A stretch of DNA of 30,501 nucleotides, taken from a virus. The notes under the pieces are model-generated. The model saw only the letters and a list, made by a program, of their open reading frames with translations. It was not told the origin of the DNA and searched no databases. The stretch lies in IMG/VR virus record IMGVR_UViG_3300021957_006103, positions 1-30,501 of that record. One strand, written 5' to 3'. Shown one piece after another: positions 1,151-22,764 of the stretch (its first letter is position 1; every line of letters starts with the position of its first letter). The position numbers were made by a program, and so were the translations under genes.

Positions 1151-1552
1151 CTACTTCTCCTTGCTATTTTGATTCCCCTCCTGTGTAGATTCAGTTGCCT
1201 TTTTATAAAAAATTATAATCTCTTTTTGTTGTAATATAAATCTTTTAATTTCTTGCATATTTAATGCAAGCATTTCGTAAGTTTTTGGCGTTATAGCATA
1301 AAAAACAAATTCCTCATTATTTTGTTCTTTCTGTATTTGTGTCAAAAACTTTTGTAAATTATCCTTATTTACAACGTCAAAATGAAGTTTATCTAATAAT
1401 AGAGGTTTAGGATCGGAGGGGGCGATAATCTTATTCTCTACGGGTTTAGAAAAAACATCTAATTTTTTTACAGTATCACAAGCAGTCAGTAATAATACTA
1501 CACTACTTACTAGGAGTAGGTTTTTTAGCACCAGAAATCTCCTCAAGTTCAT
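1151..1552 (-). CDS. Lipoprotein, probable o-spanin
   Basis: The N-terminus carries a short basic region (NLRR), a hydrophobic stretch and the lipobox LLTAC (cysteine about residue 25), so the 133-residue precursor should be lipidated and sent to the outer membrane. The gene begins 50 bases inside the i-spanin-like gene in another frame, the overlapping arrangement common for spanin pairs. The mature domain (about residues 50-130) is helical and charged and ends in a Gln/Asn/Lys tail; it lacks the proline-rich sequence of lambda Rz1. The call rests on lipobox, size and overlap, not on sequence similarity. In the spanin model it would meet the inner-membrane partner across the periplasm and fuse the membranes after the endolysin has acted. 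Confidence 0.65.
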   Translation of the reverse strand: MNLRRFLVLKNLLLVSSVVLLLTACDTVKKLDVFSKPVENKIIAPSDPKPLLLDKLHFDVVNKDNLQKFLTQIQKEQNNEEFVFYAITPKTYEMLALNMQEIKRFILQQKEIIIFYKKATESTQEGNQNSKEK

Positions 1553-1941: not shown

Positions 1942-2418
1942 TTAAAATCTTCCAAGAAACCTTGCAATAGGGTGTACAAAAGGAAGTAAGGATACCGCCA
2001 TAAGTAAGTTCATACCGGTATGTGCTATTGCTATTCTTAGCGTATCGCCCTTAGGCATTCCGTCTGATACAAACAGACCGGCTAACCATATCGTTCCTGT
2101 TGTGCCAATATTTGCACCTAATACAGCTGCAATAGCAGCAGGTAATGGTACTGCTCCTGAAGCTACAAGCGCAATAATAGCTGTTGTACTTAAAGAAGAT
2201 GATTGCCATAGCAAAGTCATTATGATACCGCCGAGGAACATCCAATAGGGGTTATGAATAAAATAATTTAGATGTTCTAAATTACCCATTGATTTCATAC
2301 CACCCGAAAACATTTTTAGTCCAATGTAAAAAACTACCAAACCCACAAGAGCTGTGATTACTGGGTTACCTAATTCCATTTTTTTAACCTTTTTAATTAA
2401 TTTTTTTGTGTGTTCCAT
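1942..2418 (-). CDS. Single-repeat Na+/Pi-cotransporter-like membrane protein in the lysis cassette
   Basis: The 158-residue protein carries the signature of one Na_Pi_cotrans repeat (NptA/SLC34 type): QSSS at residues 72-75 and GANIGTT at 101-107, with about four hydrophobic segments (near 18-38, 58-88, 92-116 and 132-156). Full transporters contain two such repeats in inverted arrangement, so this is half a transporter, or works as a dimer. The ATG shares a base with the endolysin stop (TAATG), giving tight coupling. The gene lies between endolysin and spanins, where a holin would be expected, and no other holin candidate is seen among the genes here. It may be a phosphate-uptake auxiliary gene or a transporter fold reused as a membrane-permeabilising protein; the sequence cannot decide. 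Confidence 0.8.
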   Translation of the reverse strand: MEHTKKLIKKVKKMELGNPVITALVGLVVFYIGLKMFSGGMKSMGNLEHLNYFIHNPYWMFLGGIIMTLLWQSSSLSTTAIIALVASGAVPLPAAIAAVLGANIGTTGTIWLAGLFVSDGMPKGDTLRIAIAHTGMNLLMAVSLLPFVHPIARFLGRF

Positions 2419-2861
2419 TATGAGATATTTCTCATCCTCTCCACAAGTCTTTCAGCTCTTGCACCAACTTGGCGATACCATTGACTATCCACCATTTCAT
2501 CGGCAGCTTCATTCCAGTTTCTGGAATCCACTCCCCGTTTCATTCCTACAAACTTGGAGAGCCTTGGTCGACCAAGATTGAACATCATATTAGCAATTAT
2601 TTGCTGAGCTTCTTCTGGCAGAGTGTCAAAGTCTGAGTAAAGGATGTTGCAGTCTCGCAAGACTGTTTCGATATCCGATTCGAAGGCTTCAGCGCATCTG
2701 TCAGCATCAACGGGGGTCCCCACTGCAAGTCCGTGTTCTGGGTCTGATTCCGTAACCAGATGACCGATACCAAAAGTAGGATAACCAAGGTGGTCAAGAT
2801 AAATCTCATAAACCACTCCTTCATCAATTTCTAATTGTTTTCTTAAATTATCAATATTCAT
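2418..2861 (-). CDS. Endolysin, T4-type lysozyme (GH24 muramidase)
   Basis: The protein hydrolyses the MurNAc-GlcNAc bond of peptidoglycan. The catalytic triad of T4 lysozyme is present with identical spacing: E14 in DEGVVY, D23 in YLDHLG and T29 in PTFGIGH. The C-terminal half keeps family features such as MMFNLGRPRLSKF and WYRQVGARAERL. I chose the ATG at 2861 (147 residues) because it aligns with the usual N-terminus and follows the upstream stop by one base; a longer reading frame would run 20 residues into the upstream gene. It is slightly shorter than the 164 residues of T4 lysozyme. No signal peptide is seen, so it needs a holin-like protein to reach the periplasm, possibly the membrane protein encoded immediately downstream. 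Confidence 0.93.
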   Translation of the reverse strand: MNIDNLRKQLEIDEGVVYEIYLDHLGYPTFGIGHLVTESDPEHGLAVGTPVDADRCAEAFESDIETVLRDCNILYSDFDTLPEEAQQIIANMMFNLGRPRLSKFVGMKRGVDSRNWNEAADEMVDSQWYRQVGARAERLVERMRNIS

Positions 2862-5655: not shown

Positions 5656-7012
5656 TTTTAAAGTGCTCTACCGTATTAACAATAGGTTTTCCTTTTGCAT
5701 TTAAACTAGTATTAATTAATATAGGATGCCCAAGCTTAGTAGTAAAATCTAAAATTTTAGCAAGAAAAGCATTTTTAGTTTTATTAACTAACTGAAGTCT
5801 TGCAGTTTCATCGTGTGTTTTAAAAGGGCTATTTGGTTCGTTATAGGCGACATATAACATTTCGTAAGAAGGATAGTAAATATCAAAGTACTCTTCTGCT
5901 ACTTCTTCTAAACACACAGGAGCATACGGTCTCCAAGAGTCATTTACTCTTCCTTTTAAATTATCTAATTTACTAACACAAAGAGGAGTAGGTAATGCTA
6001 GTAAACTTCTATTTCCTAAAGCACGAGGACCAAACTCAGCTGGACCATTAATAACAGGCACTATTTCTCCTCTAAGTAGTCTTTGTGCTATATCTTCTGG
6101 GTTTTGATTTAAAGAATCTTCATATCCTAAATATGCATTTTCCCAAATAGGTCTATCTAAAAGCCCCGCGGCTCCTAAAGCGCATCCCGCATCTCCAGCA
6201 GCTGGTTGAATTGCAATATGATCAAAATTAGAATACCTAATTAAATTAGTATTTGCTACACAATTTAAAGCTACTCCGCCGGCATAAGCAAGCTTGTTAC
6301 AGGCTGTCTCTTTAAATAACCAATTAGCTAAATTAATTAAACAATCTTGTAATAGTTCTTGAGCGCTTGCAGCTATATCCCAATCAAGTACACCTTTACC
6401 AACACCCCTACGTAGATCTTGTTTTAAGGTATAATTTCCAAATTCTGTTTCTAAAAACTTTTCTTTCATATAATTTTTCCACTTTGGCTCTCCATAAGCT
6501 GCTGCGGACATTATTTTACATTCATCAGATAGAGGGACAAACCCTAATAAATTTGTTATAGTAGAATAAAACAAACCTAAACTTTCTGGATATTCAAATC
6601 TTTTTATCCAAGTAATTTCATTATTTTCGTACATACCTAAACTAGTAGAGTAGTTACCTCCAACAGAATCTACTACCAATACTGCACATCTATCCCAATC
6701 AGTTGTTAAAATAGAACTCATAGCATGACATTTATGATGATCCATAAATTCAATAGGATATTTTCCTGGTATTGCTTTTTTTATTTCTCTTTTAATATTT
6801 TGTCTTTCTAATAACCCAGGTCTTTCATAGTATGCAACTCCATCAACTTTTTCAATATGATGCCGCATCCAACGAATAGAATTAGAAGGAAAAGAATTAT
6901 CAAATTTTTTACGAGTAAAACGTTCTTCATGGGAAGCACGCCTTACAAAGCCATTTTGCAATAACGCAGCGGCAGAATCATGATGATATGCGCTAATTCC
7001 GAATATTGTCAT
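5639..7012 (-). CDS. Carbamoyltransferase, NodU/CmcH/TobZ family, short C-terminus
   Basis: This family transfers a carbamoyl group from carbamoyl phosphate, via carbamoyl-AMP, to hydroxyls of sugars or antibiotics. Seen here: the N-terminal ASKHA-type signature ISAYHHDSAAAL (HDS 11-13), metal-site DHHKCHA (91-97), the VVDSVGG turn (114-119), YAGGVALNCVANT and PAAGDAGCALGAA, and the NGPAEFGPRALGNRS segment. The C-terminal YrdC-like part keeps VNDSWRPYAP and ILINTSLNAKGKPIVNT. It then stops about 12 residues later, whereas relatives continue with another strand-helix unit. With 457 residues it is about 100 short of typical members. The end overlaps the exonuclease start. It likely carbamoylates a sugar of the phage-encoded glycan; target unknown. 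Confidence 0.88.
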   Translation of the reverse strand: MTIFGISAYHHDSAAALLQNGFVRRASHEERFTRKKFDNSFPSNSIRWMRHHIEKVDGVAYYERPGLLERQNIKREIKKAIPGKYPIEFMDHHKCHAMSSILTTDWDRCAVLVVDSVGGNYSTSLGMYENNEITWIKRFEYPESLGLFYSTITNLLGFVPLSDECKIMSAAAYGEPKWKNYMKEKFLETEFGNYTLKQDLRRGVGKGVLDWDIAASAQELLQDCLINLANWLFKETACNKLAYAGGVALNCVANTNLIRYSNFDHIAIQPAAGDAGCALGAAGLLDRPIWENAYLGYEDSLNQNPEDIAQRLLRGEIVPVINGPAEFGPRALGNRSLLALPTPLCVSKLDNLKGRVNDSWRPYAPVCLEEVAEEYFDIYYPSYEMLYVAYNEPNSPFKTHDETARLQLVNKTKNAFLAKILDFTTKLGHPILINTSLNAKGKPIVNTVEHFKNEIKL

Positions 7013-7550
7013 TAAAATACCTTTTATAAATACTTGTTAGTTGTTTTTTATTTACTGTAGTATAATTAGGTTTATCAATAAAGCTTACAAAAGCCCATCT
7101 ATTTTTTTTAACTAGTGGCTGTATTCTATGAACCATAAAACAAGGAAATATAACTGTCTTACCTGGAATAGGATAAATTCTAGCTATAATCTCTGTAGGT
7201 TCTGGAGCACTAAACTCTGTTTGTTCTACTCTTACTCCTTTTGGATTCCAGTTGCCTATCTCAAAAGGTTGCCCATCAGTTAAATAAATTAAATGACTCC
7301 AAAATCTAGAAGGTCTAGGACAAGAAAGAATACCATTAGTATAGTCCATGTTATCAAAATGCCATTCATAGCATTCTCCTGGTTTTAATAAAATAGCTGT
7401 TTGTCCTGCAAAATTACATACCCATTGATGTCCGTACCAGTAATAATTTTTTTCACAGTGCTCAACTATTTTATAGGCTTTTTTAGCTATCTCCCCACTA
7501 AAACCTATGTGTATAGAATCTACCCATCTATCGTCAATGAAATCTTCCAA
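6993..7550 (-). CDS. Fe(II)/2-oxoglutarate oxygenase, prolyl-4-hydroxylase type
   Basis: The iron ligands H64 and D66 lie in CYEWHFDNMD. The distal H141 is in PCFMVHRIQP and R151 follows in KKNRWAFVSF, matching the P4H/PKHD pattern. The strand SHLIYLTDGQPFEIGNW between them is typical of the double-stranded beta-helix. No ATG exists in the N-terminal half; the likely start is a TTG at 7550, preceded by GAGGAG about 11 bases upstream inside the SGNH gene, which it overlaps by 31 bases. The stop overlaps the carbamoyltransferase start by 20 bases. The neighbours suggest the product of hydroxylation may be acyl- or carbamoyl-modified, but this is inference. Confidence 0.8.
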   Translation of the reverse strand: MEDFIDDRWVDSIHIGFSGEIAKKAYKIVEHCEKNYYWYGHQWVCNFAGQTAILLKPGECYEWHFDNMDYTNGILSCPRPSRFWSHLIYLTDGQPFEIGNWNPKGVRVEQTEFSAPEPTEIIARIYPIPGKTVIFPCFMVHRIQPLVKKNRWAFVSFIDKPNYTTVNKKQLTSIYKRYFNDNIRN

Positions 7551-10803: not shown

Positions 10804-11904
10804 TTGAAATCTATAGCGTTTATTCCCCATCGACAACGTATAAAAAAACATAAGCTTGATTATCTTCGTGCTATCTCAGATGCTATGGACTATCCGTACC
10901 AAGCAGAAGATGGTCGTGATTTAGCGCCTATACAAAGAGAACTAGCAGATAAATGCGCTGAGCTATCTGATCTTCCTTTTTGGAATTTTACAAATTGCGG
11001 CACCGACTCTTTACAAATAGCTGTTCACGCTTTAACAAAAGAGGGCGATACTATTTTAGTTCCTGCATATGGCTGGAGAGGAGTAGCAAACGCTGTTAGG
11101 TTTATGAATAGACGTTTAAAGTTTATTGATATAGATGAAACTGGTAATATTTCTGTTGAAGCATTAGAAAACTGGGCGAAAATAAAAAATAACTATGCAA
11201 ATGCGCTTATAATTATACATAATTTTGGCACAATGGCAAATGTACCAGAACTATGTAAAGTAGTTAAAAAATATCTTCCTGCAATAAAAATAATTGAAGA
11301 TGCAGCTCCTGCATTTTATATGGGAGCACCTATATCTTATAAACCTGGACAATTATCTGATTTAGTATGTTACTCTTTCGATTTTACAAAAGGACCGGGC
11401 ACGTTAGGTTCTGGTGGAGGAATTGCAACTCGTCATGCTGATATTCATGAGCGTATTTATGAAATTCAAGCGCACGGAACTTCAAAACAAAAACAAATAG
11501 TAGGTTATGGCACTAAGAGTTTTTTAGATAATACCTCTTGTGCCGTTCTTTTAAAAGAAATTCAGCTGTATGAGCAATTCGAGTATCGAGAGCGTCGAAA
11601 TCAGATTGCTACTTGGTATAATGACAATCTTCCCTTCAAATCTATACCCGGAGAAAATTATATTTGGGAAAGATTCTCAATGTTTGTTCCTTCAGAGCAA
11701 GTTGCTTCTGTATTAGAAAGGCTTCACTCAGTCAATTGTTTAGCAAGAACTATGTTCAAAGAACCAATGTCTTCTTTTCCTTTTTTTGAAGCTCAAGAAG
11801 AACTTCAAGGAGTAAAATATTTTACTGAGAATTTAATTCATTTACCCTCTCATCATTACCTAGAACAAGAAGACTTAAATGTGATTAAAAAATGTCTAGA
11901 ATAG
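10804..11904 (+). CDS. DegT/DnrJ/EryC1-type PLP aminotransferase (1)
   Basis: The family transfers an amino group from glutamate or glutamine to keto-sugars of nucleotide-sugar pathways. Seen: NCGTDSLQI (64-72, the GTSAL-like cofactor loop), PAYGWRG (87-93), E165-D166 in IIEDAAPAF (Asp holds the PLP ring nitrogen) and SFDFTKGPGTLGSGGG with K196 as the Schiff-base lysine. At 366 residues the length is normal. The start is a TTG at 10804 right after the upstream stop; the next ATG (residue 28) would cut into the N-terminal helix. It opens the sugar-pathway block, overlapping the PP-loop gene by 13 bases. The sugar substrate cannot be read from sequence. Confidence 0.85.
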   Translation: MKSIAFIPHRQRIKKHKLDYLRAISDAMDYPYQAEDGRDLAPIQRELADKCAELSDLPFWNFTNCGTDSLQIAVHALTKEGDTILVPAYGWRGVANAVRFMNRRLKFIDIDETGNISVEALENWAKIKNNYANALIIIHNFGTMANVPELCKVVKKYLPAIKIIEDAAPAFYMGAPISYKPGQLSDLVCYSFDFTKGPGTLGSGGGIATRHADIHERIYEIQAHGTSKQKQIVGYGTKSFLDNTSCAVLLKEIQLYEQFEYRERRNQIATWYNDNLPFKSIPGENYIWERFSMFVPSEQVASVLERLHSVNCLARTMFKEPMSSFPFFEAQEELQGVKYFTENLIHLPSHHYLEQEDLNVIKKCLE

Positions 11905-12917
11905 GTTGGTATTTAAATAATAAATATTATAGTAATAAATGGTCTTGTATAACTGAAAATAATTATTCAACTAAGAATGTAACATTTTATTTTTTTGAAG
12001 ATGCTTTTGACAAACTAAACTGGGAAGTTGAGCCGTCTTTATCATATGATTATCTTTTAGAACAAAGAGCTAAACAATTAAGAGACTCTTATGACTATTT
12101 AAGACTTTGGTATACTAGTGGATCAGATTCTGAAACTATATTACAAACTTTTTTAAAACATAATATTTATATTGATGAAATTGCAGTTGCTAAAAACCCA
12201 TTTACAGAATCAGATAGAGAACTTAATAAAAGAGCTATTCCAAGGCTAAAACTATTACAAGATAAATTTCCTAATACCTTTATAAATATATTTCAAACAT
12301 CTGCACAACAATACTTAAATATATTAGAAAGTCAAGATTATGATAAAATTGCTTCAGATATTACATTAAGAAGTATGAGTTATTTATCTTCTTGTTACTA
12401 TACACACTCAAAATTATTAGAAGCACCTCATAATAAATTTAGTAAAGTTGCTAATGTTATAGGACATATAAAACCTAAAATAGAAAAACGAGATAATAAA
12501 TTTTTTACTTATGAATGGGATTCTGTGGTTAGCACATTTTCGTTAACTCCAAATTTAGAGATGTTTTATACTAGTCCAAATTTTCCCGAACTTCATTTAA
12601 AACAGTGTCATATAGTAAAAAATTACATTAAATATAAATATCCGCAAATAGGCAATCAAATTTTTGCTGAAAATAATCAATATAGAAATGATATTGAGTA
12701 TGCTATAAGAGTTCCTATTGATAATACATATACATTTGCTAAAGAAGGTACTTTAAGAAATTTAACTCCTAAAGCAAAGCTTGCACTTCAAGAAGCATAT
12801 AAAGTAGCACCTGATGTATATCACGCATTTAAAAACATATCTAAAGATTATACATTTATGTTTAAAAAATGGAATAAATTAGGAATTAAATCAACAGAAT
12901 ATTGCTTAGGAAAATAA
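11892..12917 (+). CDS. PP-loop ATPase, asparagine-synthase-like domain
   Basis: The 341-residue protein has the PP-loop YTSGSDSET (SGSDS at 76-80), which binds ATP in N-type ATP pyrophosphatases. Such enzymes adenylate a carbonyl or carboxylate and replace it with nitrogen or sulfur. No glutaminase domain is present, so ammonia or an amine must come from another protein. The N-terminal 70 residues (YLNNKYYSNKWSC...) resemble the strand-rich lead of asparagine-synthase-like proteins. Its place between a DegT aminotransferase and an SDR recalls sugar-amidine enzymes (WbpG type) of surface glycan clusters, but a ligase acting on another substrate is also possible. The rest has no motif I recognise. 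It is AT-rich, like its neighbours. Confidence 0.65.
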   Translation: MSRIGWYLNNKYYSNKWSCITENNYSTKNVTFYFFEDAFDKLNWEVEPSLSYDYLLEQRAKQLRDSYDYLRLWYTSGSDSETILQTFLKHNIYIDEIAVAKNPFTESDRELNKRAIPRLKLLQDKFPNTFINIFQTSAQQYLNILESQDYDKIASDITLRSMSYLSSCYYTHSKLLEAPHNKFSKVANVIGHIKPKIEKRDNKFFTYEWDSVVSTFSLTPNLEMFYTSPNFPELHLKQCHIVKNYIKYKYPQIGNQIFAENNQYRNDIEYAIRVPIDNTYTFAKEGTLRNLTPKAKLALQEAYKVAPDVYHAFKNISKDYTFMFKKWNKLGIKSTEYCLGK

Positions 12918-13841
12918 ATGAAAATATTAATTACAGGTGGATTAGGTTTTATAGGCGCTCATTTAGCAAACGCACTAAGTAATCATGATATTACTATACT
13001 AGATAAATATGATCTTAATTATATAGGATTTGCAAAAATATATAGAGGACAGGTAGAAGGTATTGTTCCTATATCAGAAATAGAAGAAAAACACCGAAAA
13101 TTAAATGTACAATATAGAATATCATTAATTAAAAATATTAATATTATTAGAAAATGGTCTTTTGAGTATTTACCTACAGATTCTTTTGATTTAATAATAA
13201 ATTGTGGTGGTTTATCTGAAGCTGTTTTATCTAAGTTTTTTGGAGAGTTTTGTTATAATTCTATTGTAGAAGGTTATAAAAATATTAAAGCTACATATTC
13301 TTGTCCTACTATTCATATAAGTTCTTCAATGGTTTATGGTTCTTGGAAAGGAAAAATTACAGAACTAAATACATTAAACCCAGTTGATTACTATGGAATA
13401 TGTAAAGCAAAAGCAGAAGGATTTATAGATGAAAATGATATTGTATTACGTCCTATTCACGTATATGGTATTGGAGACGCTAAATTTCCAATCTGGATGA
13501 ATATTGAAAGACAAATAAATAAAAATCAACCTGTAAATGTAGAGGCAGCAGATTGTATTTATATTGATGACTTTGTCCAAATCGTCAAAAATATTCTTGA
13601 CTCTTGGAAACCAGGTATATATAATATAAGTTCTAATTACATTAGAAACGGAAAAGATTTACAAAAAGTGTATCCAAAACATTTTAAAATAAAAGAAAAG
13701 TTAGGGCCTACTGGAAAACCGAGAGGTTCTTTAAATAGTTCAAAATTATTTGAAACTTTTAATGTAAAACTTCAGTATAATAACTACTTAGAAACAATAC
13801 AGGATTATTATAATAAATATGAAAATTTATGTAAGAAATAA
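12918..13841 (+). CDS. NAD-dependent epimerase/dehydratase (extended SDR) (1)
   Basis: The Rossmann glycine motif is TGGLGFIGAHL (6-16), the catalytic Ser lies in HISSSMVYG (133-141), and Y159-x-x-x-K163 follows in DYYGICKAKAEG. VLRPIHVYGIGD fits the substrate-binding loop of nucleotide-sugar epimerases or dehydratases. At 307 residues it is a little short. It starts directly after the upstream stop and overlaps the bS21 gene by 23 bases. Whether it epimerises, dehydrates or reduces cannot be judged. Confidence 0.82.
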   Translation: MKILITGGLGFIGAHLANALSNHDITILDKYDLNYIGFAKIYRGQVEGIVPISEIEEKHRKLNVQYRISLIKNINIIRKWSFEYLPTDSFDLIINCGGLSEAVLSKFFGEFCYNSIVEGYKNIKATYSCPTIHISSSMVYGSWKGKITELNTLNPVDYYGICKAKAEGFIDENDIVLRPIHVYGIGDAKFPIWMNIERQINKNQPVNVEAADCIYIDDFVQIVKNILDSWKPGIYNISSNYIRNGKDLQKVYPKHFKIKEKLGPTGKPRGSLNSSKLFETFNVKLQYNNYLETIQDYYNKYENLCKK

Positions 13842-14073
13842 TAATGTAACTAAAGCGTGGTCTATACTTAAAAAGAAGTTACACGAAGATGGAACTTTTA
13901 AAAAAGTAAGAGATCAAGCTTATTACATTAGTAAGGGAGAAAAACGTCGTTTAGCCAAAAAAGCTGGAGTGGCTCGTTGGAAAAAGAAAAAAATACAATT
14001 AGACGAACAGTTTGAACGAAACGAGCGTTATCAATTTAAAAACCGTAAAAAGCATATCAGTAAAAAATCTTAA
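13819..14073 (+). CDS. rpsU: Ribosomal protein bS21 homologue
   Basis: The 84-residue basic protein matches bS21: IYVRNNNVTKAWSILKKKL aligns with the alphaproteobacterial start pattern V-V-R-(D/N)-N-N-V-x-x-A-x-x-x-L-K-K-K-L. GTFKKVRDQAYY corresponds to the V/F-x-x-(V/M)-(R/K)-x-x-x-x-Y-E segment, and the Lys/Arg-rich tail follows. bS21 sits near the mRNA exit and the anti-Shine-Dalgarno of the small subunit and affects start-site choice; phage copies are known to occur. The gene begins inside the SDR gene and is separated by a promoter from the SH3-type protein and tmRNA. A role in biasing host ribosomes toward phage mRNAs is the usual idea; here it is inference. The symbol is by homology. 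Confidence 0.85.
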   Translation: MKIYVRNNNVTKAWSILKKKLHEDGTFKKVRDQAYYISKGEKRRLAKKAGVARWKKKKIQLDEQFERNERYQFKNRKKHISKKS

Positions 14074-14080
14074 TGTAATC

Positions 14081-14109
14081 TTGCTTGTTGCTATTTTTTC
14101 TGCTACTAT
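14081..14109 (+). promoter_or_regulatory. Sigma70-like phage promoter, TTGCTT-17-TACTAT
   Basis: TTGCTT (14081-14086), 17 bases ending TCTGC, then TACTAT (14104-14109). It fills most of the 63-base gap after bS21 and should drive the SH3-type gene and the tmRNA. It shares -35, spacing and TCTGC with the elements at 9744-9772 and 27560-27588. Confidence 0.7.
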
Positions 14110-14136
14110 TTATTTAACGGAAAAATGGAGATTACA

Positions 14137-14388
14137 ATGAAAGCTTATAAGGGAATTTTTAAAAAGAAAAACGGTGAGTCAAGAACAATGGTTTTTTCTA
14201 GAATTAGTGATTTACCTTCTTCTTTTGTTGCTTCTAAAATTTCAGGGGCGGGATCTGAACAACGATATCCTGAGGGTATGGAGCTTGTTTGGGATTTAGA
14301 AGCAGATAACTTTAGAATATTTAATTGGAAAGCTGTAGAAAGTATGCCTTCACAATTTGATATTGATGAAGATTTATTTAATATTTAG
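14137..14388 (+). CDS. Small SH3-like beta-barrel phage protein
   Basis: I take the ATG at 14137, which has GGAG six bases upstream, over an ATG at 14125 that overlaps that site. The 83 residues read AYKGIFKKKNGESRTMVFSR, ISDLPSSFV, PEGMELVWDLEADNFRIFNW. The pattern 'G-x-x-K-x-(D/N)-G-x-x-R-T-M-x-F...DLP...EGMELVWD-x-x-x-x-x-F-R-x-F-N' is one I know from small phage proteins annotated as SH3 beta-barrel fold-containing. Their function is unknown. It sits directly upstream of the tmRNA acceptor piece and probably shares its transcript. Confidence 0.65.
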   Translation: MKAYKGIFKKKNGESRTMVFSRISDLPSSFVASKISGAGSEQRYPEGMELVWDLEADNFRIFNWKAVESMPSQFDIDEDLFNI

Positions 14389-14394
14389 TGCTTC

Positions 14395-14454
14395 GTTTGA
14401 GGAGAAGTAGAATAAACATACTGGACCCGGGGGCGGTACCCGGCGACTCCACCA
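14395..14454 (+). ncRNA. tmRNA acceptor piece
   Basis: It ends in the encoded ACCA at 14451-14454. CCGGG (14427-14431) and CCCGG (14439-14443) form the T-arm stem around GGCGGTA, the non-canonical T loop of permuted alphaproteobacterial tmRNAs. CGACTCC (14444-14450) is the 3' strand of the acceptor stem. The 5' end is not defined by sequence; I place it shortly after the upstream stop at 14388. Confidence 0.85.
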
Positions 14455-14551
14455 TAAGCACACTGCCTGAAAAGGGAAAGGCAGAGTTGAAACACACTCG
14501 GTAAGTCGAAAGACTGAAGTTGGGATCAGGTCCAACCAGTGTGCTTATGAT
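14455..14551 (+). ncRNA. Intervening segment of the permuted tmRNA, highly structured
   Basis: TAAGCACACTG (14455-14465) pairs perfectly with CAGTGTGCTTA (14537-14547). Inside are hairpins GCCT...AGGC, AGTC-GAAA-GACT and GTTGG...CCAAC, so the precursor forms a multi-arm junction stacked on the acceptor stem. With the partly pairing ACCA/TGAT bases, the combined stem is about 22 pairs. It must be cut out on both sides to free the CCA end and the 5' end of the coding piece. Confidence 0.75.
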
Positions 14552-14639
14552 GGGGTCGAAATAGGATCGACAGGTGTAGTAAAAACTAAACCGAGAAGCA
14601 GGTGCGCAAGCGACCTTGACCGCAAGAAACACTATAATT

Positions 14640-14687
14640 GCCAACGATAACTTCGTAGCAAATGAGGATTATGCTCTAGCAGCTTAA
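14640..14687 (+). other. tmRNA proteolysis-tag reading frame, ANDNFVANEDYALAA
   Basis: From the resume codon GCC at 14640 the frame encodes 15 residues ending in LAA, then TAA at 14685-14687. The ANDN start and ALAA end are typical of alphaproteobacterial tags recognised by ClpXP. It lies in the coding piece, which runs from 14552 to about 14731. Confidence 0.9.
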
Positions 14688-14747
14688 TTACTCGGGGTAA
14701 GGGTTCCACCTAGCAACAGAACGGGCCCACCAATTATAGAGGATTTA

Positions 14748-15386
14748 ATGCAAAATTTATATATTCTAGGAGACGGGGGTTTTTCATCTGAAGTATACGA
14801 TTGTCAAATACTTCAAGAAAGCTCTGTCTCACACTATAATTTTATTGATTTTTTAAGCTATACGCAAGATAAAAATAAACTTTTATATTCTTCTACTGGT
14901 TTTGATTTTGATTATCCAAGAAATGCTGCCTTCATTTTTGGTTTGACGAGTAGGAAATGGCGTGATATAATCAAAGAACATTTACAAGAAAGATATGTTT
15001 TTAATAATTATCATTTTCCAAACGCTATTTCTGCAAAAGCACACATATCAAAACTAAGCACAATAGGTATTGGTAATGTTATTCAGCCTTGGGTAATGAT
15101 TGCTGGTAATGCAGAAATTGGAGATTTTAACGAGTTTAACTGGTCAGCTTCAATTTCTCACGATTGTAAAATGGGTAATGATAATATCTTATCTCCTTAT
15201 GCGGGAATTATGGGTTTTGGTAAACTCAAAGATAGAAACTGGTTTGGTCCCTACGCTCTTATGGGTTCTTATACAGAAATGGGAAGTGAAAACCATTTAA
15301 GTGCTCACGAGTTTATTCTAGAAGGTAATCTAGGAAACCGCAAATTAGTTAAACAAGGACAAATTTTAGAAAAACCAAAAAGATGA
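14748..15386 (+). CDS. NeuD-like sugar O/N-acyltransferase (left-handed beta-helix)
   Basis: The 212-residue protein has an N-terminal nucleotide-fold segment (LYILGDGGFSSEVYD), then hexapeptide-repeat turns from about residue 95: ISAKAHISKLSTIGIGN, VIQPWVMIAGNAEIGD and WSASISHDCKMGNDN, with the likely catalytic His in SISHDC. This is the layout of NeuD/PglD acetyltransferases that acylate amino-sugars from acetyl-CoA, often the step after a DegT aminotransferase. GAGGA lies five bases before the ATG. It starts right after the tmRNA and overlaps the glycosyltransferase gene by four bases. The C-terminal half has fewer perfect hexapeptides than usual. Confidence 0.75.
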   Translation: MQNLYILGDGGFSSEVYDCQILQESSVSHYNFIDFLSYTQDKNKLLYSSTGFDFDYPRNAAFIFGLTSRKWRDIIKEHLQERYVFNNYHFPNAISAKAHISKLSTIGIGNVIQPWVMIAGNAEIGDFNEFNWSASISHDCKMGNDNILSPYAGIMGFGKLKDRNWFGPYALMGSYTEMGSENHLSAHEFILEGNLGNRKLVKQGQILEKPKR

Positions 15387-16165
15387 TAATTTTATTTAGA
15401 TGTTGTGAGGCGGCTACTTCAGCAGGAAGTATGGGAAGTGAAACACAAATAGTTCCTCGTTGGGAAGGTAAATATAAGAACGAAATTTTTAATGCTTGTT
15501 GGCACTCAATGCAACAAGGTATTGAAGAAACAGATAAAATTTATTTTATTTCTGATAGAACTTCACCAGAATCTCTTGCTAAATTATCAGAAACAACTAT
15601 AGCACAAACAGAAATTAGAGAGATTGTGCCTATGGTTGAAAAACAAAAAACACATCCATACCCAAAATATCATCCTGTAGTAGTTAATGATGCTTCAGAG
15701 TTTGCTACACAGCTAATTGATATTGCAGAAAAGAATCCTGATGAAATTATATATGCTTGCGAAGATGATTATTTACATCTTCCACATGCAATTCTTGCAA
15801 TGAAATGGTTATTTAATGCAACAGATCATCAGGGGTTTTATGTACCATATGATTATCCTGATAGATATTCTTTAGATTCCAGTAGACAATGTGAAGTATT
15901 TATTGGTGCTTATGGGCATCTAAGAACTATTCAAAGCTCTACTTTAACAATGGCTGCCAAAGGTAAAACTTTCTTACAGTATAAGTATGAAATTTTACAA
16001 GGAGGTGTTTTCGCACAAGACTCATGGACTTGGAAAGCTTTTAACCAAGTTAAATGTCTAGCTCCTATTCCTGGACATACTACACATCTACAAGACAGAT
16101 GTATAACACCCATTATTAACTGGAAACAGTATTTTGATTCCCTTCATCCAGAAAAAATCTTTTAA
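15383..16165 (+). CDS. Glycosyltransferase-like protein (GT-A type)
   Basis: The 260-residue protein carries ACEDDYLHLP (EDDY at 127-130), which fits the metal-binding acidic motif of GT-A enzymes, following a strand (EIIYAC). YFISDRTSPES (54-64) resembles the early nucleotide-sugar site. GVFAQDSWTWKAF (about 213-225) fits the region with the catalytic base. The start ATG overlaps the acyltransferase stop by four bases; the end overlaps the second aminotransferase. The donor and acceptor sugars are unknown, and the family assignment is from motifs only. Confidence 0.6.
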   Translation: MIILFRCCEAATSAGSMGSETQIVPRWEGKYKNEIFNACWHSMQQGIEETDKIYFISDRTSPESLAKLSETTIAQTEIREIVPMVEKQKTHPYPKYHPVVVNDASEFATQLIDIAEKNPDEIIYACEDDYLHLPHAILAMKWLFNATDHQGFYVPYDYPDRYSLDSSRQCEVFIGAYGHLRTIQSSTLTMAAKGKTFLQYKYEILQGGVFAQDSWTWKAFNQVKCLAPIPGHTTHLQDRCITPIINWKQYFDSLHPEKIF

Positions 16166-17138
16166 TTACGCAATCCTTTCTCACTATATAGACTCTGCTG
16201 TAAAAACTAATCAGTGGAGTAACTATGGTTGGGCAGTACAAGAGCTAGAAAAAGAAGCACGTAACTTATTAAAGATATCAGAGGAAAAAGCAGTAATCGC
16301 TGTTAATTCTGGTACTTCTGCAATTGATTGTATTATACATGGAATGCGTCGATTTGAAGAGCGTAATTTAAGAATTACAACCCAAGATTTTACTTTTCCT
16401 TCTAATGGAATAGGAGCAGCAGAAGGACCTATAGTAGTAGATTTTGATAATGACTTAAATATAAATTATAGAGATGACTATTTAGTTCATTACGGTGATA
16501 TTTTAATTGTCACTAATTGTTTTGGTCATTTACAACCAATAGAACAAATTGTAGATGCGTGTAATAAATTAAATAAGTTTGTTATTTTTGATAACGCAGC
16601 AACCCCATATTCCTTTATTAATGGTCAAAATAGTTGTAATTATGGAGTTGCTTCTTATATATCTTTACACCATACAAAACCTTTAGGGTTTGGTGAAGGG
16701 GGTTTAGTTATTATTGATAAAAAATATGAAGAAATGTGTAGACGAGCTACAAATTTTGGTAAGTTAACAGCTAAAGATTCTCACAGCGAATTTAGTGGTA
16801 ATTTCAAAATGAGCGACCTTTCTGCAGCAGGTATTTTACAGTGGTGGAAAGAACTTAATTTTGATATTGACTCTTTAAAAGATGCTTATTTAGAAAATTA
16901 CTATAAACTTCAATACAAATTTAGAAGAGAAATTAAAGGACAATCGTTTCCTAATATAGCAGATGAGTTTTTTCCTTTTTGTTTTCCTTGGATTGCAGAA
17001 GATCCTACCTATAATCCTTTTAGTAATGTAGAGTTTAGAAAATACTATAAGCCTTTAAGAGGTCTTCCTATTAGCCAAGAAGTATACAATCGTATACAAT
17101 GTTACCCTGTTCACAAGGACATAAAAGATTATGAATAA
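16134..17138 (+). CDS. DegT/DnrJ/EryC1-type PLP aminotransferase (2)
   Basis: Cofactor residues are VNSGTSAID (57-65), D153 in VIFDNAATP and K182 in YISLHHTKPLGFGEGG, the SHHxTK lysine motif. At 334 residues it is slightly short. The start is a TTG at 16134 (MIPFIQKK), 32 bases inside the upstream gene; no ATG lies near enough to keep the N-terminal arm. It diverges clearly from the first DegT protein (different lysine motif), so the two probably act on different keto-sugars. It overlaps the RmlB-like gene by eight bases; a 4,6-dehydratase plus aminotransferase plus NeuD-like acyltransferase would be the classic order for an acylamino-sugar. Confidence 0.85.
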   Translation: MIPFIQKKSFNYAILSHYIDSAVKTNQWSNYGWAVQELEKEARNLLKISEEKAVIAVNSGTSAIDCIIHGMRRFEERNLRITTQDFTFPSNGIGAAEGPIVVDFDNDLNINYRDDYLVHYGDILIVTNCFGHLQPIEQIVDACNKLNKFVIFDNAATPYSFINGQNSCNYGVASYISLHHTKPLGFGEGGLVIIDKKYEEMCRRATNFGKLTAKDSHSEFSGNFKMSDLSAAGILQWWKELNFDIDSLKDAYLENYYKLQYKFRREIKGQSFPNIADEFFPFCFPWIAEDPTYNPFSNVEFRKYYKPLRGLPISQEVYNRIQCYPVHKDIKDYE

Positions 17139-18105
17139 AACAGCAATTGTAACTGGTTGCGCTGGATTTATTGGTAATAATTTACTATTAAAACTATTAT
17201 CAGATGGTTGGTATGTTTATGGTATTGATAAAATAGATACTGTGTCAAGTACTGATGAATATGTATCTTATTATAATAATTATAAAAATCAATTTACTTT
17301 TATTGCAGAAGATGTGCTAAAACAAACTTGGCTTCCTACTGCTGATGTTATTTTTAATCTTGCAGCAGACAGTCATGTAGATAAAAGTATAATTGATTCT
17401 TCTTCTTTTGTTCGTAATAACATTGAAACAGTTAGACATTTGTTACAGTTAATTGAAAAAAGAGTAGCAATTAGTGTAGATCCTCCTTTATTTTTTCATT
17501 TTTCAACAGATGAAGTTTATGGAGATTTAGAAGTAGGTAGTTTTAACGAAAGCTCTCCTTTAAACCCAAGTAATCCTTACTCAGCAGCAAAAGCAGGAGC
17601 AGATTTATTACTAAGTTCTTGGGCTAGAACATATGGACTTAATTACATTATTGTTCGTCCATCTAATAATTTTGGAGATTTTCAATATCACGAAAAATTA
17701 ATTCCACTTGCTGTAAAAAAACTTCAGGCAAATAAAAAAATTCATTTGCACAATAGAGGAAAACCAGTTAGAACGTGGACTCACGTAAAAGATACTATTG
17801 ATGCCGTTCTTTTACTGTACGAAAAAGGAGAAAGAAATCGTATTTATAATATTTCTTCTGGATTCGAGCAACCAAATTTAGAAACAGCTAAGAAAGTTAT
17901 TAATTGTTTTTATATGGGAAAACCAAATGTTAATGTTCCAGATTTTCAAACTCATTTAGATTTTTCTTATGAAAGACCTGGGCAAGATGTGAGATATGCA
18001 ATAAATTGTATGCCTTTAAACGAACTTGGGTGGGAACCTAAAAAACATTTTGATACCTCTATTGCAAGTGTTGTAGATTTTTATAGAAATAGGTTTATTT
18101 GGTAA
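17131..18105 (+). CDS. Nucleotide-sugar 4,6-dehydratase-like SDR (RmlB type)
   Basis: Seen: VTGCAGFIGNNLL (7-19), NLAADSHVD (76-84), STDEVYGD (125-132), Y150-SAAK154 and VRPSNNFGDFQYHEKLIP. TDEVYG with SHVD and the 'R-x-W-T-H-V-K-D' segment is the pattern of dTDP-glucose 4,6-dehydratases and close relatives, which produce the 4-keto-6-deoxy sugar that DegT enzymes aminate. At 324 residues the length is normal. The stop shares a base with the next start (TAATG). The nucleotide carried by the sugar cannot be told. Confidence 0.85.
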   Translation: MNKTAIVTGCAGFIGNNLLLKLLSDGWYVYGIDKIDTVSSTDEYVSYYNNYKNQFTFIAEDVLKQTWLPTADVIFNLAADSHVDKSIIDSSSFVRNNIETVRHLLQLIEKRVAISVDPPLFFHFSTDEVYGDLEVGSFNESSPLNPSNPYSAAKAGADLLLSSWARTYGLNYIIVRPSNNFGDFQYHEKLIPLAVKKLQANKKIHLHNRGKPVRTWTHVKDTIDAVLLLYEKGERNRIYNISSGFEQPNLETAKKVINCFYMGKPNVNVPDFQTHLDFSYERPGQDVRYAINCMPLNELGWEPKKHFDTSIASVVDFYRNRFIW

Positions 18106-19112
18106 TGACAAAAGTATTTATTACAGGAATAGGGGGTCTTTTAGGTAGCACTCTTGCAAGAAAATTAATTACTGCTGGAGGCTATGATATTCATGGCTGT
18201 GATACTTTTATTGGTGGAATTCCTGACAATGTACCTTCTTCAGTAACTTTACACGAATTTGATATTTTAGAATTTGATAAACTTAAAGAAGCTACAAAGG
18301 AAAGTGATTGTATTTTTCACACAGCAGCTCTTCCATATGAGGGGCTTTCAGTATTTTCTCCTAAAATTACAGTAGAATCAATTGTGTCTGGAACTGTTTC
18401 TGTTGCCTCTGCTTGTTTAGCTAATAATATTAGATTATTAATTAATTGTTCTTCTATGGCACGATATGGAGCACAAACACCTCCTTTTACAGAAGATATG
18501 CCTCGTGCACCAGAAGATCCATACGGTTTAGCTAAAGCACAAGCAGAAGAACACTTAGAACTTTTGCATAAACTACACGGATTAAATTTTGTCACAGTAG
18601 TGCCACATAATGTTATTGGTCAAGGACAGAGATACTTTGACCCGTTTAGAAATGTAGTAGGCATTATGATTAATCGAGTACTACAAGGAAAAGAAATTAT
18701 AATTTACGGAGATGGAGAACAAAAACGTTCTTTTTCTAATGTAAGAGACTGTATTGACGCAGTTTATAAAATTATGATTTCTAAGAGAGATTTAGCAACG
18801 CAAGTATATAATATTGGTCCTGATGAAAATGAAATTAGTATCAAACAATTAGCTTATAAAATTGGTAATTTTTGCAATGTGTATCCAAAATTATTACATT
18901 TTCCTGATAGACCAGCAGAAGTAAAAAACGCTTTTTGTTCTAGTGATAAAATAAGAAAAGATTTTAATTACAATGCTGCTATATCTGTAGAAGACACTAT
19001 TAAAGAAATGGTTAATTGGATTCGACCAAGAGTCCAACCTTTTGAGTATCATCTAGATCTTGAATTTACTAGAGAATACACACCTAAAACCTGGACAGAA
19101 AAGATTATTTAA
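18105..19112 (+). CDS. NAD-dependent nucleotide-sugar epimerase (GalE-like SDR)
   Basis: From the ATG at 18105 (TAATG overlap with the previous stop) the protein has 335 residues. ITGIGGLLGSTL (6-17) binds NAD, FHTAALP (71-77) is the second nucleotide contact, INCSSMARYG (113-122) holds the Ser, and Y140-GLAK144 the catalytic pair. VVPHNVIGQGQRYFDP fits the sugar-binding loop of UDP-hexose 4-epimerases. The C-terminus is extended by about 25 residues (RPRVQPFEYHLDLEF...). It ends with another TAATG coupling to the glycosyltransferase gene. Confidence 0.82.
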   Translation: MTKVFITGIGGLLGSTLARKLITAGGYDIHGCDTFIGGIPDNVPSSVTLHEFDILEFDKLKEATKESDCIFHTAALPYEGLSVFSPKITVESIVSGTVSVASACLANNIRLLINCSSMARYGAQTPPFTEDMPRAPEDPYGLAKAQAEEHLELLHKLHGLNFVTVVPHNVIGQGQRYFDPFRNVVGIMINRVLQGKEIIIYGDGEQKRSFSNVRDCIDAVYKIMISKRDLATQVYNIGPDENEISIKQLAYKIGNFCNVYPKLLHFPDRPAEVKNAFCSSDKIRKDFNYNAAISVEDTIKEMVNWIRPRVQPFEYHLDLEFTREYTPKTWTEKII

Positions 19113-19870
19113 TGTCAGTAAAAATTATATGCCCTTATGTAAACGATATTGAAATTATAAACCACAAAAATCGTTTTTGGAACTTATCTGTTTATTATGA
19201 AAAAGATACTGCAATGATTGGTTCAGATATGATGTATCAAAAACTGTGGAATCAATTTCCAGAAGATGATATTTTTATCTTACATGCAGACATGTTTCCA
19301 GAAGAAACAGATGAATATAATAAATGGTTTGATAAACTACTTGAATATGTAGAAAAGTATCCTGAAGCAGGTATGTTTGGTTGTTTACTATTATATCCAG
19401 CAAAAGACAAAAATGGAAATTTTTTCGTACAATGTGCAGGTGGACGATTTACTAATGACATCCCAGATCATTTTGGAAGCGGACTATATCTAGAAACAGG
19501 CGGAACTTTTAAAGAAACGTTAGAAACAGACATTGGTCAATATAACAAAGTTCGTAGTGTTGCTTGGACAACTTTCGGAGGATTATATATTAGAAGAGAA
19601 GTTCTTAATAAGATTGGCAATTTTGATCCTAGATATGAATGGACCTATAATAGAGACGTAGATTATTGTTTAAGAACAAGAGAAGCAGGATTTAAAATTT
19701 ATCAAATTCCCGTTCGATTATTTCATCACGAAAGTCGGGATAATAAAATAATTAAAAACAATAATAATAATTTACTAAAAGCAGAAATGCGTAATCTAGA
19801 AACACTTAAAAATTTATGGAGTAATAGTAAGTTTTACAAAACACTTGACGAGGTAGTTTCTAATGAGTAA
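19112..19870 (+). CDS. Family-2-type glycosyltransferase
   Basis: The 252-residue protein carries FILHADMFPEE (H58-A-D60, the DxD-equivalent) and a C-terminal hallmark GGLYIRREVLNKIGNFDPRY, then DVDYCLRTREAGFKIYQIP and FHHES, the ED/acceptor region of GT2 enzymes (rhamnosyl- and galactosyltransferase-like). The N-terminal nucleotide-binding strand is only partly typical (KIICPYVND). It is coupled to the epimerase by TAATG and overlaps the membrane microprotein by eight bases. Confidence 0.82.
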   Translation: MSVKIICPYVNDIEIINHKNRFWNLSVYYEKDTAMIGSDMMYQKLWNQFPEDDIFILHADMFPEETDEYNKWFDKLLEYVEKYPEAGMFGCLLLYPAKDKNGNFFVQCAGGRFTNDIPDHFGSGLYLETGGTFKETLETDIGQYNKVRSVAWTTFGGLYIRREVLNKIGNFDPRYEWTYNRDVDYCLRTREAGFKIYQIPVRLFHHESRDNKIIKNNNNNLLKAEMRNLETLKNLWSNSKFYKTLDEVVSNE

Positions 19871-20090
19871 AATGTACATAACAAAAGAACAATTAAAGGA
19901 AATGTTTATGGATAGAAAAAGAAATTTTACAGGACCTTTTACTTATTTATATATTTTTTTAATATTATTAATATGTTTTATTCCTGTATTTGCTATTATA
20001 TTATTAATTAGCTTTCTTGCTATTTGTTATATACCTTTTTATGTTTTAGATGAATATGTTATTAGGAGACTATTAAATGCAAAAAATTAG
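19863..20090 (+). CDS. Small membrane protein
   Basis: The 75 residues comprise a basic cytoplasmic N-terminus (about 1-25, KEQLKEMFMDRKRNF), a long hydrophobic stretch (about 27-61) that could be one bent or two close membrane helices, and a short charged tail. A second ATG lies nine bases downstream. It is flanked by a glycosyltransferase and a methyltransferase and overlaps both, so it may anchor or assist glycan enzymes at the membrane, or act as a superinfection-type membrane peptide. Both ideas are inference. Confidence 0.6.
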   Translation: MSKMYITKEQLKEMFMDRKRNFTGPFTYLYIFLILLICFIPVFAIILLISFLAICYIPFYVLDEYVIRRLLNAKN

Positions 20091-20787
20091 TGAAGCTTTT
20101 GTAAAAGCTAGTTTAGAGTTAGCAGACGGAGAAAAAGGAAAACTTACAGATGTAGAAAGACAACTTTATGGTCAAGCATCTATTAAGTTAAAAACTTTTT
20201 TAAATAATGTTTGTTCTAAAGACAATACAAGATATTTAGAGCTTGGAGTATATAGAGGATCAACTCTTATGAGCGCTGCTTATGGTAATAAAACTTTAAC
20301 GGCTCTTGGTGTAGAAAACTTTAAGTACGACAAAACAGAACCTAAAAAATGGGCAGACGAGGGTTGGCCCAATATGAAGTCTAATTTATACGATACACTA
20401 ACTAAATACTCTTTTGACGATAGTGTTGATATGTCTAAGATAAAAATTATTGAAAGTGATTTTCAGGAAATATCTTGGGGCTCACAAGCAAAATTTGATG
20501 TAATTTACTTTGATATTGAACCTGTAACAGAAGAAATTTATGATGAATTTTTTAAAAAAGTATTTCAAGCTTTTTCTAGACAGTGTATTGTTATTTTTTC
20601 TCAATACTCAAAAGATGATAAAGCTACTATGTTAGAATCAAAAATTGAACAATATAGTGATAGATTGGTAACAGAATTTAAGTTCCAAAGAGTATCTAGC
20701 GGAACAGCAGATGCATTTGGTTATCATAGCGGAATCGCTGTGTATGGTTTTAGAAAGAAAGCATTTGCAAAAAATGACGAATCGTAG
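20077..20787 (+). CDS. Class I SAM-dependent methyltransferase-like protein
   Basis: The 236-residue protein has the motif I-like segment YLELGVYRGSTL (53-64) with the Gly-rich loop, followed by an acidic residue in LGVENF (77-82). FDVIYFDIEP (about 140-149) is the motif IV position and IVIFSQYS a further strand. These fit the Rossmann-like methyltransferases common in glycan clusters (FkbM or Methyltransf_24 type). The target, perhaps a sugar hydroxyl or amino group, is unknown. It overlaps both neighbours by 14 bases. Confidence 0.65.
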   Translation: MQKISEAFVKASLELADGEKGKLTDVERQLYGQASIKLKTFLNNVCSKDNTRYLELGVYRGSTLMSAAYGNKTLTALGVENFKYDKTEPKKWADEGWPNMKSNLYDTLTKYSFDDSVDMSKIKIIESDFQEISWGSQAKFDVIYFDIEPVTEEIYDEFFKKVFQAFSRQCIVIFSQYSKDDKATMLESKIEQYSDRLVTEFKFQRVSSGTADAFGYHSGIAVYGFRKKAFAKNDES

Positions 20788-21613
20788 TAAAAATAGTATT
20801 ATAAGTTTAATTTCTTATGATGCAGATTATTTACCTAAAAGTATTGAAAAATACTATGAATATGTTGATGAAATTATTTTAGGGCTAGACAAAGATAGAA
20901 TTTCTTGGAGTAATAACTCTTTTTCTTTTAATGAAAATAAACTTTGGAAAGAACTTGACGCATTAGATGGAGATTCTAAAATTTCTATTATCGAAGAAGA
21001 CTTTCATAAAAGCGAAGTAGCTATTGAAAATGATAATTATGAAAGAAATTTTTTAAAAGAACAATGCTCTAATAATATAATTATTAGTATTGATGCTGAC
21101 GAACAATTACTACAAGCTAAAGACTTTTTTTACAATTTTCTTCCTTTAACCTATTCTTACATAGAAAAATATGATATTTGTATGAATTGGGCTACTCCTT
21201 ACAAACAAATTGAAGATATGACTCTTGTTATTGCTGAAGATGATGATTCTCCTTTGCTTGCAGAAAATCAAAGTTTTATTACAAATAAAAACGCAACTTT
21301 TACTTATGCTCGCTGGACTAATAAAAGTGCGGGCGGACTAAATAGACTTTTAAGTCCTGCTATTATGCTTCATTATTCTTTATGTAGAGAAAAGGAAGCA
21401 TTACATACTAAAATTAATAACATCGGGCATTCTGATATTGTAAATGAAGATCCATTTTACGAAATTTGGTCACAGGTAACTATGGATAATTATCACGAAC
21501 TAAGAAATTTTAAAACATCAGGGCTTGGAGGAGTTCAGTGGCCTAAACTACGCGCAGTACCAACCGCAGAACTTGAAGCTTATTACTCTAGCTATTTTGA
21601 TAAGGTATACTAA
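20774..21613 (+). CDS. GT2-like glycosyltransferase
   Basis: I start at the ATG at 20774 (279 residues), since the longer frame from 20711 runs antisense in reading sense through the methyltransferase gene and has no motif. NIIISIDADEQLL has the DAD motif (107-109). SLISYDADYLPKSIEKY at the N-terminus is the usual first strand with its acidic residue. The middle contains WATPYKQIED and YARWTNKSAGGLNRLL. The architecture fits small GT-A enzymes related to family 2 that hold 'D-A-D-E'. It couples to the next gene by a one-base overlap (TAATG). Confidence 0.65.
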   Translation: MTNRSKNSIISLISYDADYLPKSIEKYYEYVDEIILGLDKDRISWSNNSFSFNENKLWKELDALDGDSKISIIEEDFHKSEVAIENDNYERNFLKEQCSNNIIISIDADEQLLQAKDFFYNFLPLTYSYIEKYDICMNWATPYKQIEDMTLVIAEDDDSPLLAENQSFITNKNATFTYARWTNKSAGGLNRLLSPAIMLHYSLCREKEALHTKINNIGHSDIVNEDPFYEIWSQVTMDNYHELRNFKTSGLGGVQWPKLRAVPTAELEAYYSSYFDKVY

Positions 21614-22764
21614 TGAAAGTAGAATTAGTTGGAAAGTTTTTTGATAATCACTCTTTGAGTATTATTAATAGAAACTTAGTAAAATATTTAAAAGATAAGT
21701 GTGATTTATTAGTTACACCTTTAGATTCTGTAACTACCGAATTTGGAGTAGATATAGATACAGTAAAAACGCTAAAAGACCTATCAAATAAAAATGCGAT
21801 TCCTGATATTCAAATTAGGCATACATACCCTCCAATTTGGAATTGGCCTACTAACTCAGATACAAAAGTGGTATTTATTCAACCTTGGGAATACACAAAA
21901 GTTCCTTTTGAGTGGCAATACAAGTTTGAAACTTTTGCAGATGCTTTATGCGTTCCAAGTAACTTTGAGAGAGATATATTTTTAAAAGGAGGTATTAATC
22001 CTGATAAAATATTTACTGTACCTAATGGATACGATGATAATGTATACAACAAAAAACCTGTAAAACCTTATAAAAATATTGATTCTAGTAAGTTTAACTT
22101 TGTATTTATCGGTAATGGACAATGGCGAAAAGGTGTTGATATTTTACTAAATCAGTGGAAAGATGCTTTTACTGCTTCTGATAATTGCAGACTAATCATT
22201 AAAGATAACTCTGCTATTTATGGACATAATAACTTATTAAATGAAGTTATTAAGATGCAGTATAAAACAGGCTGTGCTCCTATTGTGTATATTGATGAGC
22301 AACTAACTGATGAAGAAATGGCTGCTATTTATAAAAATTCAAAAGTACTGGTGCATCCTTATAGAGCAGAAGGGTTTGGTATGCATATCCAAGAAGCCTA
22401 TGCTTGTGGTTGTCTTCCAATTCTTCCAGATTTTGGCCCTCATCAAGATTTTATCCCAGAAGATCATTACCTAAAGATTCCAACTGAACAAAAGATGTTT
22501 AATATTTGTGATCCGTCTATATTTGCTACAAAGCCAGGAGATGCTACTACCTTAATGAGCACTCATTCTTTCTATAGAGAACCTATTGGACAAACACTCC
22601 AAAATGCATTAAAATATATTTATTTCCATCATAATAAAAAAGAATGGTATAATAAAATTAATGCAGCTGTTCCAGAAAATAATTGGAATCATGTAGTAAA
22701 TAAATATTGGGAGGTACTTGAAAATGTCGCAAACAGACAAGGAACTCAGCGAGCTAGACAATAA
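21613..22764 (+). CDS. GT4-type glycosyltransferase (GT-B fold)
   Basis: The 383-residue protein is a two-domain GT-B enzyme: N-terminal KVELVGKFFDNHSLS, linker IFTVPNGYDDNVYN (133-146), then the C-terminal donor domain with FVFIGNGQWRKGVDILLNQW (164-182) and EGFGMHIQEAYACGCLP, where E253 and E261 make the EX7E motif. It uses a nucleotide-sugar donor, retaining mechanism. It shares one base with the upstream GT gene, and its 3' end overlaps the Fe-S carrier gene by 41 bases, which contains that gene's ribosome site. Confidence 0.85.
   Translation: MKVELVGKFFDNHSLSIINRNLVKYLKDKCDLLVTPLDSVTTEFGVDIDTVKTLKDLSNKNAIPDIQIRHTYPPIWNWPTNSDTKVVFIQPWEYTKVPFEWQYKFETFADALCVPSNFERDIFLKGGINPDKIFTVPNGYDDNVYNKKPVKPYKNIDSSKFNFVFIGNGQWRKGVDILLNQWKDAFTASDNCRLIIKDNSAIYGHNNLLNEVIKMQYKTGCAPIVYIDEQLTDEEMAAIYKNSKVLVHPYRAEGFGMHIQEAYACGCLPILPDFGPHQDFIPEDHYLKIPTEQKMFNICDPSIFATKPGDATTLMSTHSFYREPIGQTLQNALKYIYFHHNKKEWYNKINAAVPENNWNHVVNKYWEVLENVANRQGTQRARQ

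Follow-up and report, generated by a model that had tools for sequence, protein, structure and literature searches.

The gene at positions 1942-2418 (minus strand) of the window, by which we mean the whole analysed stretch of 30,501 nucleotides (a 30.5-kb fragment of an IMG/VR virus record), is real and widespread, and most likely it is a gene for phosphate uptake that has come to lie in a lysis operon, and not a new type of holin. With a probability of roughly 0.6, we regard it as an auxiliary phage gene for phosphate uptake, whose product would be a single-repeat member of the SLC34/NptA family that has to dimerise to rebuild a two-repeat transporter. Its presumed task would be the Na+-driven import of phosphate (Pi) during infection. 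In large parts of the ocean, phage production is thought to be limited by phosphate; a gene that is common among phages and possibly imports phosphate in a minimal form would offer a compact handle on this limitation. The original prediction had named a phosphate-scavenging auxiliary gene as one of two readings, and this one is supported by the many genome positions of the gene, by purifying selection, by the retention of its motifs and by its exchange for a PstS gene in an otherwise 98% identical phage. The auxiliary-gene idea for phage Na/Pi genes is not new, as PF02690 Na/Pi genes have already been reported in eight marine phage genomes of the HMO-2011 type, where they are read as phosphate uptake genes (PMC9038755). 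The interest of the present gene lies in its half size and its conserved inner start.

Identity of the gene and its lysis cassette

The gene, its motifs and its neighbours in the window are as follows.

1942-2418, minus strand: half-size Na+/Pi cotransporter gene (NaPi), 158 aa, ATG start, one PF02690 repeat
2194-2205, minus strand: QSSS motif, residues 72-75, invariant in 52 of 52 viral sequences (alignment A1)
2098-2118, minus strand: GANIGTT motif, residues 101-107; G, A, N, G, T and T invariant, Ile nearly so (A1, 52 sequences)
2416-2418, minus strand: upstream ATG of the long form, in a TAATG overlap with the endolysin stop
2418-2861, minus strand: T4-type lysozyme (endolysin), 147 aa, PF00959 (E=2.3e-9), no N-terminal membrane segment
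1503-1898, minus strand: Rz-like inner-membrane spanin (i-spanin), phrog_739 (4e-14)
1151-1552, minus strand: Rz1-like outer-membrane lipoprotein spanin, phrog_812 (4.8e-12), overlapping Rz

The protein matches PF02690 (Na_Pi_cotrans) in a single stretch with E=3.6e-16 and 59.9 bits, about twice the curated cut-off of 29.1, and scores marginally above the cut-off of the NCBIfam model Na_Pi_symport (52.4 vs 50). The residues of QSSS and GxNxGTT are conserved as expected of the Na+/Pi family; the two inverted repeats in one chain that are likewise expected of it are not present in the phage protein. The single Na_Pi_cotrans repeat with QSSS and GANIGTT that had been predicted from the DNA was thus borne out, and the gene, for which no strand had been named, lies on the minus strand. 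The four hydrophobic segments noted at the same time are only approximate: a hydropathy scan finds three, and the arrangement in the AlphaFold2 model is given below. A comparison with the repeats of SLC34, which are inverted relative to each other, had been suggested as a check, and the phage protein shows about equal similarity to either repeat of zebrafish SLC34A2 (E=6e-18). Judged by this match and by the size of the family, the resemblance is far above chance. The gene is under strong purifying selection, with a dN/dS of about 0.06 at saturated synonymous sites.

A first structure model, made from 52 close relatives, reached a pLDDT of 70.6, which rose to 86 (pTM 0.74) when distant repeats were added. 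In this better AlphaFold2 model, TM1 (residues 19-42) comes first; QSSS forms the tip of the re-entrant-like pair that follows (57-71/74-86), and two long helices (92-117 and 125-156) complete the protein. Foldseek and VIA-align searches with the model gave nothing above Z 6.7, and 9z60 (SLC34A2) was absent among the results; this lack of a clear match counts against the preferred explanation. Chains of DASS/INDY were found with Z 4.8-5.4 and were left out of the evidence.

The gene order in the window is endolysin-TAATG-NaPi-Rz-Rz1, in agreement with the TAATG coupling to the endolysin and the directly following spanin-like genes of the original prediction (sequence; phrog_739, phrog_812). 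In this phage the NaPi gene has come to lie between the endolysin and the spanin genes, and TAATG coupling probably leads to its translation along with theirs.

Genomic context of the viral relatives

At least 583 relatives of the window's protein were found in IMG/VR, and 503 with a query from a second clade; 80 loci were retained from each of the two queries, which gives 160 viral loci. The relatives are metagenome contigs, mostly fragments, and many are short. Clade A proteins have 149-195 aa and are 80-100% identical to the window's protein, clade B proteins mostly have 164-166 aa, and no copy in the retained loci exceeds 199 aa. A tblastn search of 50,697 GenBank phages, a set from which very close records may be missing, gave no relative of the half-size protein, and no convincing model for it was found in PHROGs.

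A homologue of the window's endolysin, Rz or Rz1 lies within three genes of NaPi at 6 of the 160 loci and is lacking there at 154, a tally that used only homologues of these three genes and to which unrelated lysis genes near other copies are invisible. The six linked loci belong to the window's own lineage (L002-L005) and to a second one (L049, L051). Other neighbours of NaPi, as judged from their sequences, include DNA polymerase, recombination and structural genes; such a variable genome position is expected of an auxiliary gene. When 80 loci were fetched with a lysozyme query, NaPi was not nearby in most of them. In four of the related cassettes (L095, L096, L117 and L142) the lysozyme is directly followed by Rz and the slot between them is empty, and a distance of 44 kb separates the endolysin gene from NaPi in one 73-kb record. 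The original prediction had suggested looking at whether the gene always replaces a recognisable holin, but related cassettes without NaPi have nothing substituted in the slot. The late promoter (NATAAATA) was present in 8 of the 68 upstream regions scanned, which is not enough to conclude on the timing of expression.

Genes for Bmp/PnrA-like ABC substrate-binding proteins were also seen near NaPi, at 5880-7130 in L186 and at 2860-3927 in L051, in the latter case inside the lysis region; PF02608 was tested for L186 only, and the L051 gene was judged by its similar sequence.

Exchange with a PstS-like gene

Two sister phages differ by an exact swap at one site. L115 and L122 share one flank of 5,994 bases with 98.6% identity and another of 3,396 bases with 98.2% identity; between the flanks, L122 carries the half-size NaPi gene (6016-6477) and L115 a PstS-like gene (5995-7047). 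The L115 protein matches PF12849 well above the cut-off (E=8e-42) and TIGR02136 with E=1e-46 but below the curated cut-off. In seven contigs of this lineage, the slot is occupied by NaPi in four cases (L268, L270, L271, L109), by PstS in two (L269, L274) and in L273 by another small gene. Interchangeability with another phosphate gene is expected of a phosphate auxiliary gene and was observed here. As far as sequence data alone can show what a gene is for, the replacement of one phosphate gene by another at the same site is a strong indication.

One repeat in viruses, nearly always two in cells

Every NaPi-bearing viral record searched (up to 177 kb) contains exactly one PF02690 match, and a second match, which could represent a partner half, is absent from all of these records. 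Two-repeat genes of the bacterial type were not found in viral contigs with search patterns taken from one bacterial sequence. Among 190 alphaproteobacterial genomes, 52 contain the family, nearly always as two matches in one ORF of at least 400 aa. In the phylum of the Chloroflexi MAG mentioned below, 25 of 151 genomes match, with ORFs of at least 355 aa and often two matches per ORF, one viral-looking contig excepted. That true transporters have two repeats, as had been stated at the outset, therefore holds for cells in nearly all cases in the sampled genomes, and because cellular members have two repeats the viral single-repeat form is odd. This difference between viruses and cells is new to us.

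The closest cellular relatives are 28-40% identical and have two repeats where they were read. The sole "bacterial" match of 76% is contig PAAV01000031.1 (L082 / L264) of the Chloroflexi MAG NAT137. This contig has the gene order of L184 and other viral contigs and is probably a virus binned into the MAG. Duplication and fusion of half-size ancestors is the presumed origin of inverted-repeat transporters, and a half-size Na+/Pi protein, if functional, would allow a direct test of this origin for the SLC34 fold.

A probable inner start and its possible role in membrane topology

Two further features lie near the beginning of the gene.

2387-2394, minus strand: inner Shine-Dalgarno (SD) sequence AAAAAGGT, encoded by Lys9-Lys10-Val11
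2377-2379, minus strand: proposed second start Met14, giving a short form without the Lys-rich tail

In most copies a Met directly precedes the first membrane helix; in the protein of the window this is Met14. In clade A, an AAGGT ribosome-binding site is located about 7-8 bases upstream of this inner Met, and the codon of the Lys10 equivalent, four codons before the Met, is AAG in 52 of 56 sequences (92.9%) vs 23.7% in the background of Lys before G; background codon frequencies were drawn from the same contigs, and as the sequences are related, z-scores are not probabilities. The remaining Lys codons of the tail are AAG in 10-32%, and Lys-Val pairs elsewhere in 24-35%. Clade B has other amino acids at this site, yet AAGG, AGGA or GGAG is kept in 45 of 55 sequences, and an SD of at least 5 bases is found in 67% vs 20% expected. 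In six clade B members Thr replaces the inner Met, which means that the dual start is not universal. Judged by its codons, the N-tail itself is coded and conserved: Leu at M-7 (59/62) is encoded by several codons and Val at M-3 (60/62) by three. As the inner SD is conserved and the tail is coded, both starts are probably used. The conserved second ribosome-binding site before the inner Met in most copies is likewise new to us.

Most N-tails contain many Lys residues, and the core without the tail is near charge balance (about -1 to 0). A near-zero K+R bias is expected of dual topology; the bias is +5 in the window's long form, +3.9 towards N-in on average in 48 viral copies, and -1 to 0 in the tail-less members L109, L121 and L040, and these values are not sufficient by themselves to assign a topology. 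If the long form alone were made, its bias of +5 in the window would favour one topology, which argues against the dimer of the preferred explanation.

This dimer would have to be antiparallel because the two cellular repeats are oppositely oriented. With a partner gene unseen, the simplest answer would be a head-to-tail homodimer, for which both membrane orientations would be needed from one gene. The long form, with its Lys-rich tail and a bias of about +4, may insert N-in, and the short form, with the core bias of about -1 to 0, may insert N-out or both ways; the two forms would then have opposite topologies and could pair as an inverted dimer. We tentatively propose that one gene might in this manner provide both transporter halves, N-in from the long and N-out from the short form, of a head-to-tail phosphate importer. 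If true, the SLC34 fold would exist here in a living half-size form whose topology is set by the choice of start codon, a simple mechanism of which we found no report.

A candidate ORF inside the endolysin gene

One more reading frame was noticed in the lysis cassette.

2597-2809, minus strand: +1-frame ORF within the endolysin gene, 70 aa from the ATG at 2809, one N-terminal transmembrane segment, candidate holin- or antiholin-like

Stop codons in the +1 frame are depleted in codons 18-87 of 78 lysozyme homologues (51 vs 275 expected), with no depletion outside this stretch. In its membrane segment, the peptide of the alternative frame exceeds the expected hydrophobicity, whereas the part that follows is more polar than expected; past the ORF there is no such shift. 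In 55 sequences free of near-duplicates, the +1 frame is fully open in 53% vs 1.0% expected. When 1,570 windows from 24 families are compared by size and significance jointly, the ORF is conspicuous; a similar open fraction occurs in one small family of nine sequences. Evidence for its start is mixed: the ATG is found in 40 of 53 open copies, but an SD of at least 5 bases is no commoner than expected. Among more distant cultured relatives the embedded ORF is not clearly shared. We consider it a candidate for a holin or antiholin gene.

Alternative explanations

In the second reading of the original prediction, a transporter repurposed for lysis, the half transporter would be a new type of holin that forms or triggers the lysis pore, and its two starts, which differ by a Lys-rich tail, would give a holin and an antiholin, as those of lambda S do. 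This reading draws on the TAATG-coupled position between endolysin and spanins, on an endolysin that has no N-terminal membrane segment and hence needs a pore, and on the similarity of the conserved dual start to a motif that occurs in some holins. The position alone, however, does not make a membrane gene beside an endolysin a holin. A holin would be expected to be linked to lysis genes across relatives and to fill the holin slot in related cassettes, whereas homologues of the window's lysis genes are near the gene at 6 of 160 loci only, the slot is empty in the four cassettes named above, and one record has 44 kb between endolysin and NaPi. The swap for PstS, the retention of ligand motifs that a pore does not need, the lack of a match to any holin PHROG and the candidate membrane ORF within the endolysin itself speak against it as well. 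We have thus rejected a holin identity on the basis of context, PstS swap and motif conservation, and rate it as very improbable; we do not set it to zero because dual starts that differ in charge are known from some holins.

A half protein that does not transport, but inserts into a host transporter, blocks or re-tunes it, or signals the phosphate state, would account for the missing partner half in the phage records searched, and a lone single repeat cannot be a canonical transporter. We nevertheless consider this unlikely, as the residues of the substrate motifs are invariant and the PstS swap suggests uptake; furthermore, the family occurs in only 52 of the 190 sampled alphaproteobacterial genomes, which makes a fixed host partner doubtful. 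The half-size protein could also be a transporter with one start, the inner SD being either an element that sets the translation rate or the true start, and a single dual-topology form would then dimerise. The existence of tail-less members with a bias near zero (L109, L121, L040) fits this version, but the coded and conserved tail, with Leu at M-7 and Val at M-3 in nearly all sequences, does not, and we regard it as doubtful.

Comparison with known systems

With SLC34 (NaPi-II) and bacterial NptA/YjbB (PF02690), the phage protein shares the repeat with QSSS and GANIGTT, and it matches both repeats of SLC34A2 (9z60); it differs in being half-size, with one repeat instead of two, in having no PhoU-like domain, and in the inner start of most copies. 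Lambda S is a dual-start holin/antiholin pair whose starts differ by positive charge, and dual-start motifs occur in some holins. Like lambda S, the phage gene has two starts that differ in N-terminal positive charge and encodes a membrane protein beside the endolysin, but it is a conserved transporter repeat that is mostly found away from homologues of the window's lysis genes and is swapped for PstS. Phage PstS auxiliary genes occupy the same slot in sister phages and presumably serve the same purpose, phosphate for the infected cell; PstS feeds the ABC transporter of the host, whereas the half-size Na/Pi protein would itself be the carrier.

The Na/Pi gene of HMO-2011-type phages belongs to the same Pfam family, is also found in marine phages and is also read as a phosphate uptake gene; half size, inner start and PstS swap are not mentioned in the excerpt of that paper (PMC9038755). 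The dual-topology dimers EmrE and Fluc, as described in excerpts of PMC3755343 and PMC4560821, are likewise small and half of an inverted-repeat architecture, and their head-to-tail pairing is what we would expect here. There is no recognised kinship with the phage protein, in which the two orientations may stem from two translation starts.

Elsewhere in the window, a small membrane protein of 75 aa that has no convincing family match is encoded at 19863-20090 (plus strand). Apparent sugar-nucleotide epimerases, aminotransferases and glycosyltransferases at about 10804-22764 (plus strand) look, from their sequences, like a glycan-building cluster.
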